This document shows positions 34,610 to 42,299 of a stretch of 64,000 nucleotides of DNA, piece by piece; within the stretch, counting starts at the first letter, position 1, and the number at the start of each line of letters is the position of its first letter. Source of the stretch: Fodinibius saliphilus (lineage in GTDB: Bacteria; Bacteroidota; Rhodothermia; Balneolales; Balneolaceae). The notes under the pieces were generated by a model, which had not been told where the DNA came from, made no database searches, and saw nothing but the letters and a program-made list of their open reading frames with translations. Both the position numbers and the translations under genes were made by a program. The stretch is taken from assembly GCF_005869845.1 (NCBI RefSeq), contig NZ_VAWF01000003.1:62001-126000 (forward strand), written 5' to 3'.

Positions 34610-34882
34610 TCAGGTCAAGGACCATTCTTTTGTTTCTTCATCTTGTTCAACTACCCCTTCCTTTTCCATCATTGCAAGTAAGGTTCTTGAGATGTGACCT
34701 TCATGCCCCTCATGGCCAGAGTAAATGCCAAGGGAGCGGCCTATCTCTGCGTTTTTCAAGCTGGTTTTAGAACTGTTAGCTAATAAGGAATATATGGCTG
34801 CTTTTAAATCAGAAATGGCTGATTGGGCAAGATGGTATGGGGTAGGCATAAATAATTGTTTAACAGTTTTTTTGTTTTTCAA
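34610..34882 (-). CDS. small winged-helix-like protein linked to the restriction enzyme
   Basis: A 90-residue protein. The C-terminal half, NAEIGRSLGIYSGHEGHEGH followed by ISRTLLAMMEKEGVV, looks like a winged helix-turn-helix with an unusual His/Gly-rich turn. It overlaps the end of the EcoRII-type endonuclease gene by 23 nt, so the two are co-translated. The product may be a subunit, a specificity module or a control protein of the endonuclease. There is no membrane segment. The family is not named with confidence. Confidence 0.75.
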   Translation of the reverse strand: MKNKKTVKQLFMPTPYHLAQSAISDLKAAIYSLLANSSKTSLKNAEIGRSLGIYSGHEGHEGHISRTLLAMMEKEGVVEQDEETKEWSLT

Positions 34883-36074
34883 TGATTAGTTCAATGAATT
34901 CAGCAAGAGTTAACAAAGTATTCTTTTGAGAGTCATAATAAGTATTATGAAGACCTCTAGGTAGAACTAGTTGTAAGTCATTCGAGATCATTTCTGTTGT
35001 TTGATTCTTGCTAATTCCAGGCTCTAGAGTAAACAAGTGTTTTTTTTGAATTTTATCAGCCTCAGATAAAACCTGTCTCCATCTATCTTTACAGGTGGAC
35101 TTAACCCCAAGCATATTTAAGCATCTCTTAGGGTAATCTTCTTTATGGTATTTATTTTCTCCAGGGAAAATAAAATCAGGTCTTGCTTTGTTTTCAGTTA
35201 TTGCATTATGGGTAAATTTTAAATCACAATCGGTGAATATTTGTTGTAAATGGTTTTCTAAAGCATAACCCATTCTTGATTTTCGCCTATTTTGGACACT
35301 GAGAGAAAAGGATATAAATGAATCTACATCATTAAAACCTTTGTCTAATTTTTTCTCAACTAAGTATTCTTCAAAAGTCTTGAATAGTATTTCTTCGTGT
35401 TCAATCCATTCAAGAATAGCTGCATCAGGGTTTTTTTGAGGGTCTATTTCATAAGGAAAGCTTTCCCTAGCAAATTTTGAAAACTCTTTTGTAGTTGGAA
35501 AACTATTGCCATACTTATTTAATATTTGGTCAAGATAGTTATTATCTGTTTCATCAACTTCGACACCTATCGTTTCTAATATAAGACGCGAAGCAAATGT
35601 TAGTTGAGGATCTTTGTATCCTTCAAAACGTTCTGCATATACATCTTTTTCATTAGTAAATAAGTCAAAAAGCCAAATTAATTGGCTTTCGACTGAAGAG
35701 CCTTTAGGTGTAATTATCATTAGAAAATTACCAACTTTATCTTCACATATCACTAATATGTCATTTGGCTCTGCTCTATATATTATTTCCTCAGCTATTG
35801 TTTTGTAATATATTCGATATTCTGGGCTACGATTTTCATCCTTTTTTCTAGCATCTGTCCAAGTAATTGATGTGTTTAAATAAGTCTTGTCTTCATCATC
35901 TATCCATACTAATTGTACGGGAATGTCTTTTCGATTTTCAGTGCCGAAAATTTTTATAAAATCATTAATACCTTGAAATTGGTGTTGGTTTGAAACGTTA
36001 GGACTTACTTCTGATGCAGTTAACCTTTTTGCACCAACACCGGAAAAATAATTTGATAAATAGCCTTGTTTCAT
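34860..36074 (-). CDS. EcoRII-type (type IIE) restriction endonuclease
   Basis: A 404-residue protein, the same length as EcoRII. The C-terminal catalytic domain keeps the EcoRII active-site layout with identical spacing: D300 (in RPDFIFPG), Y309, K325 and K329 (LGVKSTCKDRWRQV), against EcoRII D299, Y308, K324, K328, and a Glu at E273 in ALENHLQ. The N-terminal ~170 residues correspond in position to the EcoRII effector-binding domain, so a two-site type IIE enzyme is expected. EcoRII cuts at CCWGG. Whether this one does is unproven. It is AT-rich (hand count 17/60 G+C at 35761-35820) and divergent from the MIG-like gene. Confidence 0.9.
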   Translation of the reverse strand: MKQGYLSNYFSGVGAKRLTASEVSPNVSNQHQFQGINDFIKIFGTENRKDIPVQLVWIDDEDKTYLNTSITWTDARKKDENRSPEYRIYYKTIAEEIIYRAEPNDILVICEDKVGNFLMIITPKGSSVESQLIWLFDLFTNEKDVYAERFEGYKDPQLTFASRLILETIGVEVDETDNNYLDQILNKYGNSFPTTKEFSKFARESFPYEIDPQKNPDAAILEWIEHEEILFKTFEEYLVEKKLDKGFNDVDSFISFSLSVQNRRKSRMGYALENHLQQIFTDCDLKFTHNAITENKARPDFIFPGENKYHKEDYPKRCLNMLGVKSTCKDRWRQVLSEADKIQKKHLFTLEPGISKNQTTEMISNDLQLVLPRGLHNTYYDSQKNTLLTLAEFIELIIEKQKNC

Positions 36075-36166: not shown

Positions 36167-36826
36167 ATGGATATTGAACAAGATAAAATCATTTTTTTCC
36201 GTGAACGTTTATTGGATTGGTTTAAGGAGAATGGAAGAAAATTTCCATGGAGAAAGGAAGAGTTAACGAGCTATGAACTTGTTATAGCTGAAGTGTTATT
36301 GCAGAGAACTAGGGCAGAAACAGTCGCGAAGAATTTTGAGTCATTTCTGGGTAATTTCCCTTCTTGGGAATCGATTAATAAAACAGGTAAAAAAGAATTA
36401 GAGAAAGTATTAAAGCCTTTTGGGTTATACCGACAGAAAGCAAAGCGCCTTAAAAATCTTGCAGAAAAAATGGTGCAAAAAGAAGGTCAGTTTCCGGTGG
36501 TTAGGGAGGAGCTTGAAGAGATCCCGCTAGTGGGGCAGTATATTGCAAGTGCAGTTATTTCTTATGTTCACGAAAAAAAAGCACCATTACTTGATGTAAA
36601 TATGGCCCGATTACTTGAACGTTTCTTCGGGCCACGTGAGTTAGCAGATATTAGGTATGATCCATACTTACAAGAGCTTTCAAAAAAGGTTGTTGATCAT
36701 CCCGATCATCAAAAAATTAATTGGGCTATATTGGATTTTGCTTCTTCTATCTGTAAGAAAAGGAATCCCAAATGTAAGGTGTGCCCAATATCAGGCAGGT
36801 GTGAATTCTTTCAGAATGAGGGTTAA
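36167..36826 (+). CDS. MIG-like thymine-DNA glycosylase (HhH-GPD, 4Fe-4S)
   Basis: A 219-residue HhH-GPD glycosylase. The helix-hairpin-helix is IPLVGQYIASAV and the catalytic Asp is D143 (LLDVNMARLL). The iron-sulfur motif C-x6-C-x2-C-x5-C is C196, C203, C206, C212. The residue at the EndoIII lyase-Lys position is Tyr (Y125). MutY has Ser there, and the T:G glycosylase MIG of Methanothermobacter has Tyr126 with Asp144. MutY-specific C-terminal NUDIX-like domain is absent. It probably excises T from T:G mismatches made by deamination of 5-methylcytosine, the job Vsr does beside Dcm. Its 3' end overlaps the response-regulator gene by 36 nt. Confidence 0.88.
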   Translation: MDIEQDKIIFFRERLLDWFKENGRKFPWRKEELTSYELVIAEVLLQRTRAETVAKNFESFLGNFPSWESINKTGKKELEKVLKPFGLYRQKAKRLKNLAEKMVQKEGQFPVVREELEEIPLVGQYIASAVISYVHEKKAPLLDVNMARLLERFFGPRELADIRYDPYLQELSKKVVDHPDHQKINWAILDFASSICKKRNPKCKVCPISGRCEFFQNEG

Positions 36827-37186
36827 TAATTCATCATGAACATTATTTCTTTGAGATATTTTAATGTTTTGCTCCCCATCAACCATATCTGTAAGAGTTT
36901 GATCCATTTCTGAACTATAGAATATTATTGGGGTATCATTATCATAAAGCCTTATTTCAACAATTAAATTAGCTCCATTAACACGGACATTATCTAGGTT
37001 GTGGTCCATCATTATGATATCAGGTTCCCAGTCACGCATAACATTCCTAAAACCATCACCATTTTTGCTTAATTCTGGATCTGCCAATGAAATACCATTG
37101 TCTTCTAACTCATCCTCGATTCTTAAATGTACAGTATTTCCAAATGTTAAATCGTCTTCGATCCAGAAAATTTTTATTTCATTCAT
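36791..37186 (-). CDS. REC-only response regulator in the defence island
   Basis: A 131-residue receiver domain. Acidic pocket residues E10, D11 and D12 (FWIEDD) and the phospho-acceptor D61 (IIMMDHNLDN) are present, and the switch Ser lies in PIIFYSSEM. There is no output domain, so it must act by binding another protein or by phosphotransfer. The expected conserved Lys-Pro after strand 5 is not evident, so it may be atypical. Its start overlaps the stop of the dual-ATPase kinase gene (ATGA), which indicates coupled translation and a cognate pair. Confidence 0.82.
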   Translation of the reverse strand: MNEIKIFWIEDDLTFGNTVHLRIEDELEDNGISLADPELSKNGDGFRNVMRDWEPDIIMMDHNLDNVRVNGANLIVEIRLYDNDTPIIFYSSEMDQTLTDMVDGEQNIKISQRNNVHDELLTLILKEFTPA

Positions 37187-39462
37187 GGGAGAAATATTTT
37201 GAATTTAGTTCCTTCGTTAATTTTGCTTTTTACTTTTAATTCTGCATTCATTCGATCAATAATTTCTTTTATGTGGTAAAGCCCAATTCCTGATCCACCT
37301 TTATTTGATGTGTAACCATATTCGGTGATTTCATTTATCTTATCCTCAGGAATACCTTTACCATCATCTTCTATAACCAAGTAATGTCGGCTTCCTTCAT
37401 TCTCAAGTCGAACTTCAAATTTTGAAGCACCTGCTTTTTTTGAATTACTCAACATGTTATCAACTAAAATATTTAACTCAATTGGTCTAGTTTTAAATAT
37501 TTTAGGATTGCCCTCAGTCTTATTTTTGAAGCTTATCTCAACACCGTCATCGTTATATAAATCAACAATATTAGATATATATTCACGCAAATATTCACCG
37601 ATGTTTATTTCGATAGCATCTGTGTAAAGTTTAAAGTTTGCCTTAGTAGCAAACTGGCTAATATTCATTATCTTTTTATTTTCAAATACAGCTTGTTTGA
37701 TTAGATCCTGAATCCTTTCATGTGATAATTCTTTACCTCTTCGTAGCTTATTAAAAAGTGCAGTCAGTATATTGTCAATTTTAGACGCTGAAATGCCCAT
37801 ATGATGAATAAAGCTGATAACTTCATCAAAATCTTGAGACTTTACTGATTTTAGGAATAGGTTCTGAGATTCTTTTTCTTCTAGTTTTTCTTCAGTGGCT
37901 ACCCTTTTATTCCTTTCTTCTTTTTCTTTTTTTTCAGCTTCACTTTTAGCCTTCTTTAATTCTTTGACTTGCGTATTAACTTTCTTTACATCCTTTAATA
38001 GGTCTTCATTTTTTTTCTTTTCGGCAAGCTTTTCAAGATTACCTAGTAATGTCTCTGTGCTTTCACTTTGGGCTTCCTCAAGTTGTTCTAATAACTTATC
38101 CCCATATTCAAAATCAATGAGATTATCATTGCCTGATAAGTCAGCAATTAATTTGCTTATTCTATCTTGAAAAGTTTTTTCATCTTGTTCAAGGTCTTCG
38201 TCCTCCAATTTTTCAATACTAAGACCCCACTTTTGAACATCTACTACATATTTTTCAAGTCTTTTTAGAGTGTCCCAAAAAAAACTTTCTAATTGTTCAT
38301 AAGCCTTGGTTTTGATTAATCCATCGCCTCTACTTGTTGTTTCTCTTAGCTCATCGTTATCAGAATTAATATTTATTTGTCCAATTAACTCTCTTGTTCC
38401 TAAGTATCTACCAAAACCTTGTGCTTTGCGAGCATCAATTTTTAATGGATCTTCACCTGGTTCACCATATGGATATATTCTAAAGCCGTTTTTATAGATG
38501 AATACATGTCCATATTCCTTAGATCTTAATCCCATTCTTCTAGTAAATGTTACCTTAGCCGATCGATTTAAATAAAATAAATCAACTGAGATATCATATA
38601 ATTTTTTGTAAGGGTTTTTTTCTTCAACCTTATATATAAGAGTCCCCCCATCTAATAATTCTGTCGTTATATACTCTTTATCTTCACTTATGTAAGACTT
38701 TATCTTAGTGGTTTTAATTTCTAGTGTATCGAATATTCTATTTTGTATTTCCCCATTTACACGTTTCCTGTAGTCTTCTTCTTTGCGATCTTGCTCTTTT
38801 TCTTCTGGGACATTTAGAAATATTTTGAAACTTTGGCTCCCTTCATCATTTGTTGGGTTTATTAACTTTGCCAAAGAGCGTTTTAAACGGAGTAGCTTTT
38901 TTCTATCCCAATCACTTCTTAAATCAGTGATTTCTAATACTGTACCATGTTCAAGCCCATAGTAACTTTCATCCCTTGTCTCGTGCTGTATCGTTACATT
39001 AATAAATTCATCTTGTAAATCCTCTTCAAAAAGGGTCCAATCAGTTACAATGACTTCTGTTTTAGCGTCTTTTTCTTTTTTGGTTGATTCAAGCAGCAGT
39101 TCTTTTCCTAACCTGTCACAAGAGAAACGGCCAATGCCTTTTGCTCCAGCAAATGCTCGCTTTTGATAAATATTGTCCCTATAGTCAAAAGAATCATCTT
39201 CAGTACCTTCTTTTTTAGCAGAATAAGCAACAAAAAGCCACTTATTTTTAATATCCTCCAAACCCATACCTTTTCCATTATCTTTAATAATAATCTTAGA
39301 GTTTTCGGAGTAGATATTTTCAAAGGTAATGTCTACCCTTGTGGCGTAAGCATCATAGGAGTTTTTCACAAGTTCGAAAACAGCAATGTGATCATCAGTA
39401 ATAAGATCCCGACCAATGATGTCTTTAAGGGCAGAGCTGATTTTAAATGATAAATCTTCCAT
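37183..39462 (-). CDS. dual Bergerat-fold protein: Hsp90/MORC-like ATPase fused to a histidine kinase
   Basis: A 759-residue soluble protein. The N-terminal GHKL ATPase (about 1-250) has the N-box FELVKNSYDA (E30, N34), IKDNGKGM (60-66) and GAKGIGR (106-112), like Hsp90/MutL/MORC proteins. A Glu/Lys-rich coiled coil covers about 460-540. Residues FIHHMG (H553/H554) resemble an H-box, followed by a second GHKL ATPase (about 640-759) with VDNMLSNSKKA, IEDDGKGIP and GGSGIGLYHI, typical of histidine kinases. There is no membrane segment, so it senses something in the cytoplasm. The REC partner is encoded directly downstream. GHKL ATPases linked to restriction systems are known, but this double fusion is unusual. 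Confidence 0.85.
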   Translation of the reverse strand: MEDLSFKISSALKDIIGRDLITDDHIAVFELVKNSYDAYATRVDITFENIYSENSKIIIKDNGKGMGLEDIKNKWLFVAYSAKKEGTEDDSFDYRDNIYQKRAFAGAKGIGRFSCDRLGKELLLESTKKEKDAKTEVIVTDWTLFEEDLQDEFINVTIQHETRDESYYGLEHGTVLEITDLRSDWDRKKLLRLKRSLAKLINPTNDEGSQSFKIFLNVPEEKEQDRKEEDYRKRVNGEIQNRIFDTLEIKTTKIKSYISEDKEYITTELLDGGTLIYKVEEKNPYKKLYDISVDLFYLNRSAKVTFTRRMGLRSKEYGHVFIYKNGFRIYPYGEPGEDPLKIDARKAQGFGRYLGTRELIGQININSDNDELRETTSRGDGLIKTKAYEQLESFFWDTLKRLEKYVVDVQKWGLSIEKLEDEDLEQDEKTFQDRISKLIADLSGNDNLIDFEYGDKLLEQLEEAQSESTETLLGNLEKLAEKKKNEDLLKDVKKVNTQVKELKKAKSEAEKKEKEERNKRVATEEKLEEKESQNLFLKSVKSQDFDEVISFIHHMGISASKIDNILTALFNKLRRGKELSHERIQDLIKQAVFENKKIMNISQFATKANFKLYTDAIEINIGEYLREYISNIVDLYNDDGVEISFKNKTEGNPKIFKTRPIELNILVDNMLSNSKKAGASKFEVRLENEGSRHYLVIEDDGKGIPEDKINEITEYGYTSNKGGSGIGLYHIKEIIDRMNAELKVKSKINEGTKFKIFLP

Positions 39463-39477
39463 TAAAATAGTTATTCG

Positions 39478-40479
39478 ATGAATATACTTGAGTTTTTAAG
39501 AAAAGATGTGGTTGCCAATTGTTATAAAACCAAATCTTTTAGTAACGCTTGGGAAATATGGGGCAAGTTAATTAAACAAAAACTAGGGAAAAATTATAAT
39601 TGGGATGACATTTTAAACTTAGGTGAAGAATTATCCGAGGTATTTTTATCAACAAGGGGAGATGTTGAAGAAGGATTAAGTGTTGCTGAAGCAAATAGCA
39701 AAGCTTCTACTTCGGGTACAGCTTGGGAATGCTTAGTTGCTTGGTACCTAAACCTAGTATTTGTTAATAGTAGGGCTGTTGTTTTTAAAAAGACAGGAGA
39801 CGTGCCAACTCCACTTACAGATGGTCTTGAAGTGTTACACAAAAATACTAAAACGAATTCTGAGTCAGATTTGCTAGTCGTAGTTTTTCCTGACACTCCT
39901 CATTTTACCGATGAAATATTACAAGTTCCTATAACTAATGAGCGGTCAGTGCCTTATGTGCCAGATAAAAATATGAGACCAGCAAATCTATTTTCGGACT
40001 CTTACCCAGATAAAAGTTCGATTCAAGCATATGTAGATAAAGTAACAGAAGAAAAAATAGATGAATTTGAGGTCGGGGTAATACAGTGTAAAACAAATTG
40101 GAATGAAAATTCACAAATTCCAATGCTTTGGGACATTATCTATAGGCTTGGGGATAATGTAGATCAAGACATTCCCAACTTTAAAATTGGTGCGAATGGT
40201 TTTAGTAAGATGCAGTTGAAAAAATTCACATATTCATTTGTTACTGTACCAACTAATCCCCGGGCAAATTACAAAGCAACTTCTCTTGCTGTAAATAGGG
40301 TTAAGAACTTAACTGGCGGTAACTATTGGGGGTTCCCAAGGAAGCAAAGTGTTGCTGGTTCAATTAAAGAAATTTTTGATAATAATTTCATGAATGCCTT
40401 TGATGGTAGTATCAGGGAAAGTTTACAAGGTGCATTACATAATGATCTTAATTCTTTCGAGTATTTTCGCTTGGATTAG
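39478..40479 (+). CDS. predicted PD-(D/E)xK-type nuclease of the defence island
   Basis: A 333-residue protein. A helix with GTAWECLVAWY (E84) is followed by the strand SESDLLVVV (D131) and the strand VGVIQCKTNWN (Q203, K205). This is the order E..D..(E/Q)xK of restriction-endonuclease folds. The trailing NENSQIPMLWDIIY is a strong family-like signature, but I cannot name the family. There is no signal peptide. Its start is 15 nt from the divergent kinase start and its stop overlaps the methyltransferase stop by 4 nt. It may be a second restriction enzyme for the same methyltransferase or an effector controlled by the kinase. Confidence 0.75.
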   Translation: MNILEFLRKDVVANCYKTKSFSNAWEIWGKLIKQKLGKNYNWDDILNLGEELSEVFLSTRGDVEEGLSVAEANSKASTSGTAWECLVAWYLNLVFVNSRAVVFKKTGDVPTPLTDGLEVLHKNTKTNSESDLLVVVFPDTPHFTDEILQVPITNERSVPYVPDKNMRPANLFSDSYPDKSSIQAYVDKVTEEKIDEFEVGVIQCKTNWNENSQIPMLWDIIYRLGDNVDQDIPNFKIGANGFSKMQLKKFTYSFVTVPTNPRANYKATSLAVNRVKNLTGGNYWGFPRKQSVAGSIKEIFDNNFMNAFDGSIRESLQGALHNDLNSFEYFRLD

Positions 40480-42299
40480 TCAATATTTGTAAGTATTTGC
40501 ATCGCTATAGCTCTAGCCATTAATGGAGGAACTGCATTGCCAACAAGTGTGTATTGGGGAACATCATGTTTTCTACGACTACCACCTGTGGTTCTTTTAC
40601 CCTGGAACACAAAGGAGTCGTCAAAAGATTGTAGGCGGGCCATTTCCCTAACACTTAATGCCCTAGGTTCTTTATAGTGAATAAAGTCATCAGGCAAAGT
40701 GACGATTGTAGGAGAGGTACTGTTGGGGTCGAGCAAGTTATAGTTTCGTTTCTTTGTACTTACTCCTTTCTCTTTTAATTCTTCTTTGGCGTTATCATAA
40801 CTGCCATTCTTTTGTATTATTTGGAGCCTCTTTATTATATCGGCAGTATGATTACTAGCTTTATGATTTGGCAGTTTAACGCGATTTAAGTTCGCACTAT
40901 TAATTTTTCCTCTACCATCATGGTAATAGTTTTCTTCAATCGAATACTTTTCTAGTAATCTGCCTTCTCTTGACCACTCTGAATAGGTTTTGCCATTTTT
41001 CTTATTTAGGCTACCATCAATATTTCTTTTGGGTAGATACTGGCCGTTCGTCGAGTTGGTACTATATTCTTTGATGTGTCCACCACTTTTAAGAGTTTCA
41101 AGGTCATGAAGCGCTTCTTTAATAGTGACTTTATTTTGTGATAAAACTGTAGGGGTTGGCTTATTTGTAATCTTATTTTGGCCTTTTTTTGAAGCTATAA
41201 ATATAACTCGATGACGTTCTTGGGGAACTCCATAATCAGAAGCATATAAGTCAAATTCTTTTTCAACATGATAAAGGCTAGCATTTTTTACTTTTTCAGA
41301 AAGAGTATTACCTGTTTCTTCTACAATTTCTACGAGATCATTAAGGCATTCGTCAAGAGGCTTTAGGAAAATATTCAATCCTTTTTTTAATAAGGAAAAG
41401 TGTTCAAAATCTAAGTTGTCAATGGCATTTTGGATATGATTTGTGATGCTTTGACCATCGATAAATTGTAAGAAGTTATTAAACCCTGCTTCAAAATTAT
41501 CGTTATCTATATCACAGGCTGACTTAAAGTTGAGAACACTCCTATTAATTTCTTTAAGCTGTTCCCAATTCGATAGTATTCTTAATCCATGTCGGATGGT
41601 ATTTATTTCCTCGTTATTTTTGCTTTTTGCATAGCTAATATGTTTTGCAGTTAAGTCTTTTAGGAGTTTTTGAAGGGTTGTTACGAATTCTGTATTGAAA
41701 GAAGTTGAACTATTATTTTTTTCGCTTTTTATACGTTGAATGTATAGGTCAAATGCTGCTTTGTTTTCATTTTTAATAGTATGTCTTAATTGCTCAGCTG
41801 TGTTAATAATATCGTCTAATTCAGAGCGGTCAACTATTGAATTAATTCTTTCAATAATTTTCTTCAGAAAACGCCCCCCTTCTTTATTTTTTAATCCTGA
41901 AACATTTTCCATAACAAAGTATTTAGGCTTTAAAACCTCAATAACTTCTAAGTACTTACTGAAAAGTTTATCTTTCTTGTCAAACTTTCTACGTCTACCC
42001 GCTAAGCTAAAACTTTGGCAAGGTGGCCCTCCTGTTATTACATCAATACTTTCCCCGTCAAGTTCATCTTGTAACACATTAATAAAATCTGGGTCAGTTA
42101 TATCTTTTCTTAAAAATTTCGTTTTAAGTCCAAGTTGTTCGTTATATCGAACTCTATGCGTCAATTCACAATTTTTGTTTATATCACTGGCTAATAGGAA
42201 ATCATACTCTTTCCCATCCTTTTTTGCCTGGAGGAATCCTTCACTGAATCCACCAGCGCCAGCAAATAGATCAATAAATGTGATTTTCTTGTTACTCAT
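40476..42299 (-). CDS. cytosine-5 DNA methyltransferase with a large helical insertion
   Basis: A 607-residue m5C methyltransferase. Motif I is FIDLFAGAGGFSEG (8-21), motif IV is GGPPCQSFS with nucleophile C94, motif VI is ENVSG (E131), and motif VIII is YGVPQERHRVIFIA (357-369). Motif IX/X is near ALSVREMARLQSF and YTLVGNAVPP. Between motifs VI and VIII there are about 190 extra helical residues (about 150-340) where most enzymes have 20-40. It should protect host DNA from the island's nuclease(s). The target sequence is unknown, and CCWGG is a candidate only because of the EcoRII-like partner. Confidence 0.93.
   Translation of the reverse strand: MSNKKITFIDLFAGAGGFSEGFLQAKKDGKEYDFLLASDINKNCELTHRVRYNEQLGLKTKFLRKDITDPDFINVLQDELDGESIDVITGGPPCQSFSLAGRRRKFDKKDKLFSKYLEVIEVLKPKYFVMENVSGLKNKEGGRFLKKIIERINSIVDRSELDDIINTAEQLRHTIKNENKAAFDLYIQRIKSEKNNSSTSFNTEFVTTLQKLLKDLTAKHISYAKSKNNEEINTIRHGLRILSNWEQLKEINRSVLNFKSACDIDNDNFEAGFNNFLQFIDGQSITNHIQNAIDNLDFEHFSLLKKGLNIFLKPLDECLNDLVEIVEETGNTLSEKVKNASLYHVEKEFDLYASDYGVPQERHRVIFIASKKGQNKITNKPTPTVLSQNKVTIKEALHDLETLKSGGHIKEYSTNSTNGQYLPKRNIDGSLNKKNGKTYSEWSREGRLLEKYSIEENYYHDGRGKINSANLNRVKLPNHKASNHTADIIKRLQIIQKNGSYDNAKEELKEKGVSTKKRNYNLLDPNSTSPTIVTLPDDFIHYKEPRALSVREMARLQSFDDSFVFQGKRTTGGSRRKHDVPQYTLVGNAVPPLMARAIAMQILTNID

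Follow-up and report, generated by a model that had tools for sequence, protein, structure and literature searches.

The gene located at positions 36167-36826 (forward strand) of the window, that is, the whole 64,000-nucleotide stretch of the Fodinibius saliphilus genome analyzed here, encodes a 219-aa MIG-like DNA glycosylase of the HhH-GPD, 4Fe-4S type, as indicated by its open reading frame, the Pfam and PDB matches, the alignment, the phylogenetic tree, and the structural model. Its substrate and its in vivo role are what we infer: with a probability of about 0.82, it would be a monofunctional glycosylase that removes T (probably also U) opposite G, counteracting the deamination of the 5-methylcytosine (m5C) produced by the methyltransferase of the same island, and it would be interchangeable with Vsr. 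5-Methylcytosine is a mutation hot spot to which the standard bacterial answer is Vsr, and MIG has so far been regarded as peculiar to a plasmid of a thermophilic methanogen.

Sequence, structure, and phylogeny of the glycosylase

Pfam recognized an HhH-GPD domain in the 219-aa protein (E = 2.8e-17), and the alignment showed that the Fe-S cysteines are complete (C196-X6-C203-X2-C206-X5-C212), as the preliminary description had stated. Its remark that the parts specific to MutY are missing was also borne out, since the protein ends at residue 219, right past the Fe-S loop, and therefore the C-terminal domain of MutY is absent; the V and Q residues of MutY, discussed below, are absent too. The best NCBIfam match was mutY (E = 4.4e-45), with 154 bits versus a curated cut-off of 286.5, and in this search no model reached its cut-off. 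The PADLOC model PDLC03398 (221 positions), called 'Type II nicking endonuclease', matches the glycosylase over its whole length; hence, this model was probably built on MIG, which would make its name misleading.

MIG (Mig.MthI, PDB entry 1kea) is the T/U:G mismatch glycosylase of the Methanothermobacter plasmid pFV1. It shares the fold, the size, and the Fe-S loop with the window protein, to which it is about 33% identical, and its gene likewise belongs to an m5C restriction-modification locus (L029). MIG was the best sequence match in the PDB (E = 2.9e-33 versus 5.5e-29 for the best MutY), and the AF2 model of the window glycosylase (pLDDT 97) was also nearest to 1kea, with a Z of 26.9 and 1.9 Å over 214 residues, compared with a Z of 24.9 for MutY. 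In a tree of 88 sequences, MutY formed a clade (100/99) that did not include the window protein, EndoIII was separate (100/100), and the window protein and MIG fell on one side of a branch with 93/80 support, the window protein being placed in a 38-row subclade (99/98) that leaves out MIG. The preliminary description had named a grouping inside MutY as what would speak against a MIG-like protein, and forcing the window protein into MutY was rejected (p-AU 0.0014). A single clade of MIG and MutY was not rejected (p 0.227), which makes the exact split between these two less sure.

Concerning the individual residues, Tyr125 and Asp143 do align with Tyr126 and Asp144 of MIG, as had been noted from the sequence. 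Nevertheless, their value as evidence for MIG was lost in the comparison: both are present in 22/22 MutY proteins, including MutY from the same phylum, and therefore they cannot tell MIG from MutY and exclude EndoIII only, the position of Tyr125 being K in 17/17 Nth (EndoIII) proteins. For this reason, they were rejected as proof of MIG, and it is Arg47, Ala50, and a residue other than Gln at position 186 that follow MIG instead. By mutagenesis, the specificity positions have been located at A50/L187 of MIG versus V45/Q182 of E. coli MutY; MutY reverted to A/L at these positions gained no T:G activity, and MIG acts equally on U:G and T:G (PMC2714593; the results of Horst and Fritz 1996 and Fondufe-Mittendorf 2002 are given here as related in that paper).

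The window glycosylase presents Ala50 and Arg47 as in MIG, and Trp186 where MutY has Gln (Q182) and MIG has Leu187. Ala50 was found in 76/79 proteins of the glycosylase group versus 3/22 MutY, 18 of the 22 having Val at this position, and Gln at position 186 appeared in 0/79 versus 17/22 MutY. Positions 50, 125, and 186 were outside the pattern used to scan for relatives, which included LLQRT, so the frequency of R47 among the scan matches is biased. E42 and the equivalents of Y126/D144 are also shared with MIG, and the differences comprise Gln for Arg46 and Trp for Leu187, the latter being found in most of the clade. Because position 186 carries Trp and not the Leu of MIG, the window glycosylase is assigned to a mainly bacterial sister group of MIG, and is not MIG itself. 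Given this substitution, its base preference could differ from that of MIG, and T:G activity cannot be proven by sequence alone because the A/L reversion of MutY did not create it.

The gene could also be read as that of a shortened MutY or of a MutY paralogue, excising A from pairs with G or 8-oxoG and present in the island by chance, in agreement with the best NCBIfam match, with the superfamily and the catalytic Glu42, Asp143, and Tyr125 common to MutY, and with plasmid relatives of similar identity that are sometimes annotated as MutY. However, the score far from the curated cut-off, the lack of the C-terminal domain that reads 8-oxoG, the absence of the V and Q residues of adenine specificity, and the position outside the MutY clade make this reading very improbable. 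Furthermore, MutY genes show no linkage to methyltransferases (see below), and this genome has its own MutY.

The restriction-modification island

The glycosylase gene is located in an AT-rich island of ~7.8 kb (34.6-42.4 kb), with a G+C content of 31-36% versus roughly 46-54% on either side. The genes flanking the island are 9.0 kb apart here versus about 2.0 kb in the genus relative G351, and since they are much closer in the genus relatives, this restriction-modification island is an insertion in the F. saliphilus genome.

The island encodes a 607-aa m5C DNA methyltransferase (40476-42299, reverse strand), which is the sole m5C methyltransferase of the 3.6-Mb genome. The glycosylase had been described as being beside it, which is right as to the island but not as to the distance, since 3.65 kb separate the glycosylase from the end of the methyltransferase and three genes lie in between. 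The first of them (36791-37186, reverse strand) encodes a 131-aa response-regulator-like (RR) protein with a weak PF00072 match, and overlaps by 36 nt with the 3' end of the glycosylase gene and by 4 nt with the second one (37183-39462, reverse strand). The latter encodes a 759-aa paraMORC-like HATPase, with HATPase_c_3 at the N-terminus and HATPase_c at the C-terminus, for which homologues were found. This pair of HATPase and receiver-domain proteins (36791-39462) resembles a two-component system, yet it sits inside a restriction-modification island. The third gene (39478-40479, forward strand) encodes a 333-aa protein that belongs to no known family, has no match in Pfam, NCBIfam, or PADLOC, and recurs beside such methyltransferases: its homologues, 31-39% identical, adjoin m5C methyltransferases in loci L039, L067, L077, and L088. 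It is a possible candidate for the cognate restriction protein, which would belong to an unrecognized family of restriction endonucleases. Upstream of the glycosylase, the nearest gene is about 92 bp away and divergent, and encodes a 404-aa restriction endonuclease of the EcoRII-C family (34860-36074, reverse strand; PF09019, E = 5e-69). Its 3' end overlaps with a 90-aa open reading frame (34610-34882, reverse strand) that showed no family match.

The observation that the island has no Vsr gene can be extended to the whole 3.6-Mb genome, where a separate vsr was looked for and none was found in a search in which control genomes gave positive matches. No Vsr remnants were seen in the window, and a flanking vsr-type duplication like that of locus L136 (described below) was sought around the island, where only short intergenic repeats appeared. 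The genome contains three HhH-GPD genes, which are the island glycosylase, MutY (366-aa open frame), and EndoIII.

The arrangement is similar to that of the paraMORC/two-component-like modules, which likewise combine an HATPase, an RR-like protein, and an m5C methyltransferase, with EcoRII-C or MvaI_BcnI nucleases nearby (Bellieny-Rabelo et al. 2021, PMC8011034). In these modules, vsr is often next to the RR-like gene, most often directly downstream of it, whereas the window has the glycosylase in the place of Vsr. The main text of that paper does not mention any glycosylase or MutY, and the window HATPase and RR proteins do not match its Pfam models PF19191/PF19192.

Linkage to m5C methyltransferases and the Vsr slot

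The scan of 84,980 species genomes yielded 68 loci with relatives of the glycosylase, belonging to Bacteroidota, Alphaproteobacteria, Planctomycetota, Chloroflexota, Acidobacteriota, Omnitrophota, and archaea. The relatives are mostly bacterial, whereas MIG comes from a thermophilic archaeal plasmid, and the restriction partners also differ from those of MIG. An m5C methyltransferase was present within 6 kb in 53/68 relatives (41/48 with full flanks), at a median distance of 182 bp, versus 0/17 control loci of full-length MutY (0/14 with full flanks; Fisher p = 4e-9). For the remaining 15 loci, the stretch of 6 kb showed no methyltransferase; several of these are contig ends, and in four a methyltransferase lies 6-14 kb away. 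The three genomes of loci L056, L057, and L061 yielded no m5C methyltransferase; the glycosylase relatives of L057 and L061 adjoin HerA-like ATPase genes.

The linkage extends to plasmid relatives from Thermus, Caldicellulosiruptor, haloarchaea, and a Rhodobacterales strain. In Haloferax massiliensis, a second relative (L161:2193-3966) is 8 bp from the only m5C methyltransferase, and the L097 copy is distant from it. In Alisedimentitalea scapharcae (L024:6980-7645), a stop codon interrupts the glycosylase frame at the FPWR motif, where the conserved Trp should be, and this copy therefore seems to be inactivated; the methyltransferase and nuclease frames of the locus are open. In viral contigs, no relatives were found in the scans with the single protein and the first alignment, and one prophage locus emerged when a closer pair was used for the scan; the search of phage records gave only weak MutY-like matches (<32% identity).

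The restriction partners vary across the loci (EcoRII-C, MvaI/BcnI, HATPase-RR, and the 333-aa protein) while the m5C methyltransferase is constant, and therefore the glycosylase is tied to methylation and not to one cutting mechanism. This pattern also weighs against the glycosylase being an offensive part of restriction that, in the manner of the PabI-type restriction glycosylases, would excise bases of foreign or modified phage DNA. Such enzymes are known (PMC10273834, PMC4357717), the gene resides in defense islands, and PADLOC places a similar model among type II nucleases, but intact nucleases are already there and, in homologous loci, what the glycosylase replaces is Vsr, a repair enzyme, so an offensive role is highly unlikely.

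The proposal that the glycosylase takes the place of Vsr gained support from the methyltransferase linkage and from the homologous methyltransferase-HATPase-RR systems, in which either Vsr or the glycosylase is found and the two were never together (0/19). Ten of these loci were picked by HATPase alone, and they contained Vsr or a Vsr fragment in 4/10 and the glycosylase in 0/10; nine more bear the glycosylase with the same HATPase, and Vsr was present in 0/9. The contrast between 0/9 and 4/10 is suggestive and not conclusive, given the small samples (0.6^9 is about 0.01).

The position of the genes points in the same direction. In L038 and L050, methyltransferase-HATPase-RR and then the glycosylase are read in one direction, so that the glycosylase has the position that belongs to Vsr in L164. 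In L040, L041, L049, and L054 the glycosylase is immediately before the methyltransferase, the slot that a short Vsr open reading frame (72 aa) occupies in L165. Moreover, in L045/L136 (one contig), a glycosylase-MvaI/BcnI-methyltransferase cassette lies between direct repeats of 117 nt, 90% identical, at 39-155 and 7597-7713 of L136; both repeats include a vsr 5' end, which suggests that a vsr locus was the site of an insertion or a recombination. Exclusion of Vsr at the genome level was rejected, since Vsr was above the cut-off in 14/48 genomes of the relatives. In the four genomes of relatives where Vsr is beside a methyltransferase, this methyltransferase is a different one (26-40% identical).

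Proposed function and its meaning

According to the proposed mechanism, the island methyltransferase would produce 5-methylcytosine, whose deamination would lead to a T:G mismatch. The glycosylase would flip the T (or U) out of the pair, and the chemistry of Glu42 and Asp143 would excise the base and leave an AP site. Because Tyr125 stands at the position of the EndoIII lyase lysine, the enzyme should be monofunctional, like MIG, and the AP endonuclease, polymerase, and ligase of the host would complete the repair to C:G. The glycosylase would thereby assume the mutation-avoidance role held by Vsr in other m5C restriction-modification systems. Vsr (PF03852) has the same slot beside m5C methyltransferases, and the T:G that deaminated m5C leaves is presumably the target of both, but the fold and the chemistry are unrelated, as Vsr nicks the strand and the glycosylase is predicted to excise the base. 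The EcoRII and MvaI/BcnI nuclease families presumably hint at CCWGG/CCSGG-like targets, the kind of site where Vsr acts.

The glycosylase could also repair a different lesion, mainly U opposite G or a side product of the methyltransferase and not T. This would suit the Trp186 of most of the clade and the equal activity of MIG on U:G and T:G (PMC2714593), but it is the least probable alternative, as T:G is the mismatch indicated by the m5C linkage and by the replacement of Vsr, and plain uracil repair would not need the methyltransferase linkage.

No description of the bacterial family was found in the open literature, most subscription papers and REBASE being beyond the search. It is reasonably probable that T:G repair by the window glycosylase is one case of a widespread, unnamed family of T:G glycosylases from bacteria and archaea, which would be mobile with m5C restriction-modification systems and freely swapped with Vsr. 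If true, 5-methylcytosine mutagenesis would have a second general solution, one that is not only of thermophiles and that has been hidden under the MutY label. A broad and mostly mesophilic family in the Vsr slot (Bacteroidota, Rhodobacterales, Planctomycetota, Chloroflexota, and others) would correct many annotations of 'A/G-specific adenine glycosylase', would explain how m5C systems without Vsr are tolerated, and would supply mesophilic T:G glycosylases for work on the mechanism and for tools. It would also make directly testable the question of whether every m5C methyltransferase brings its own T:G repair.
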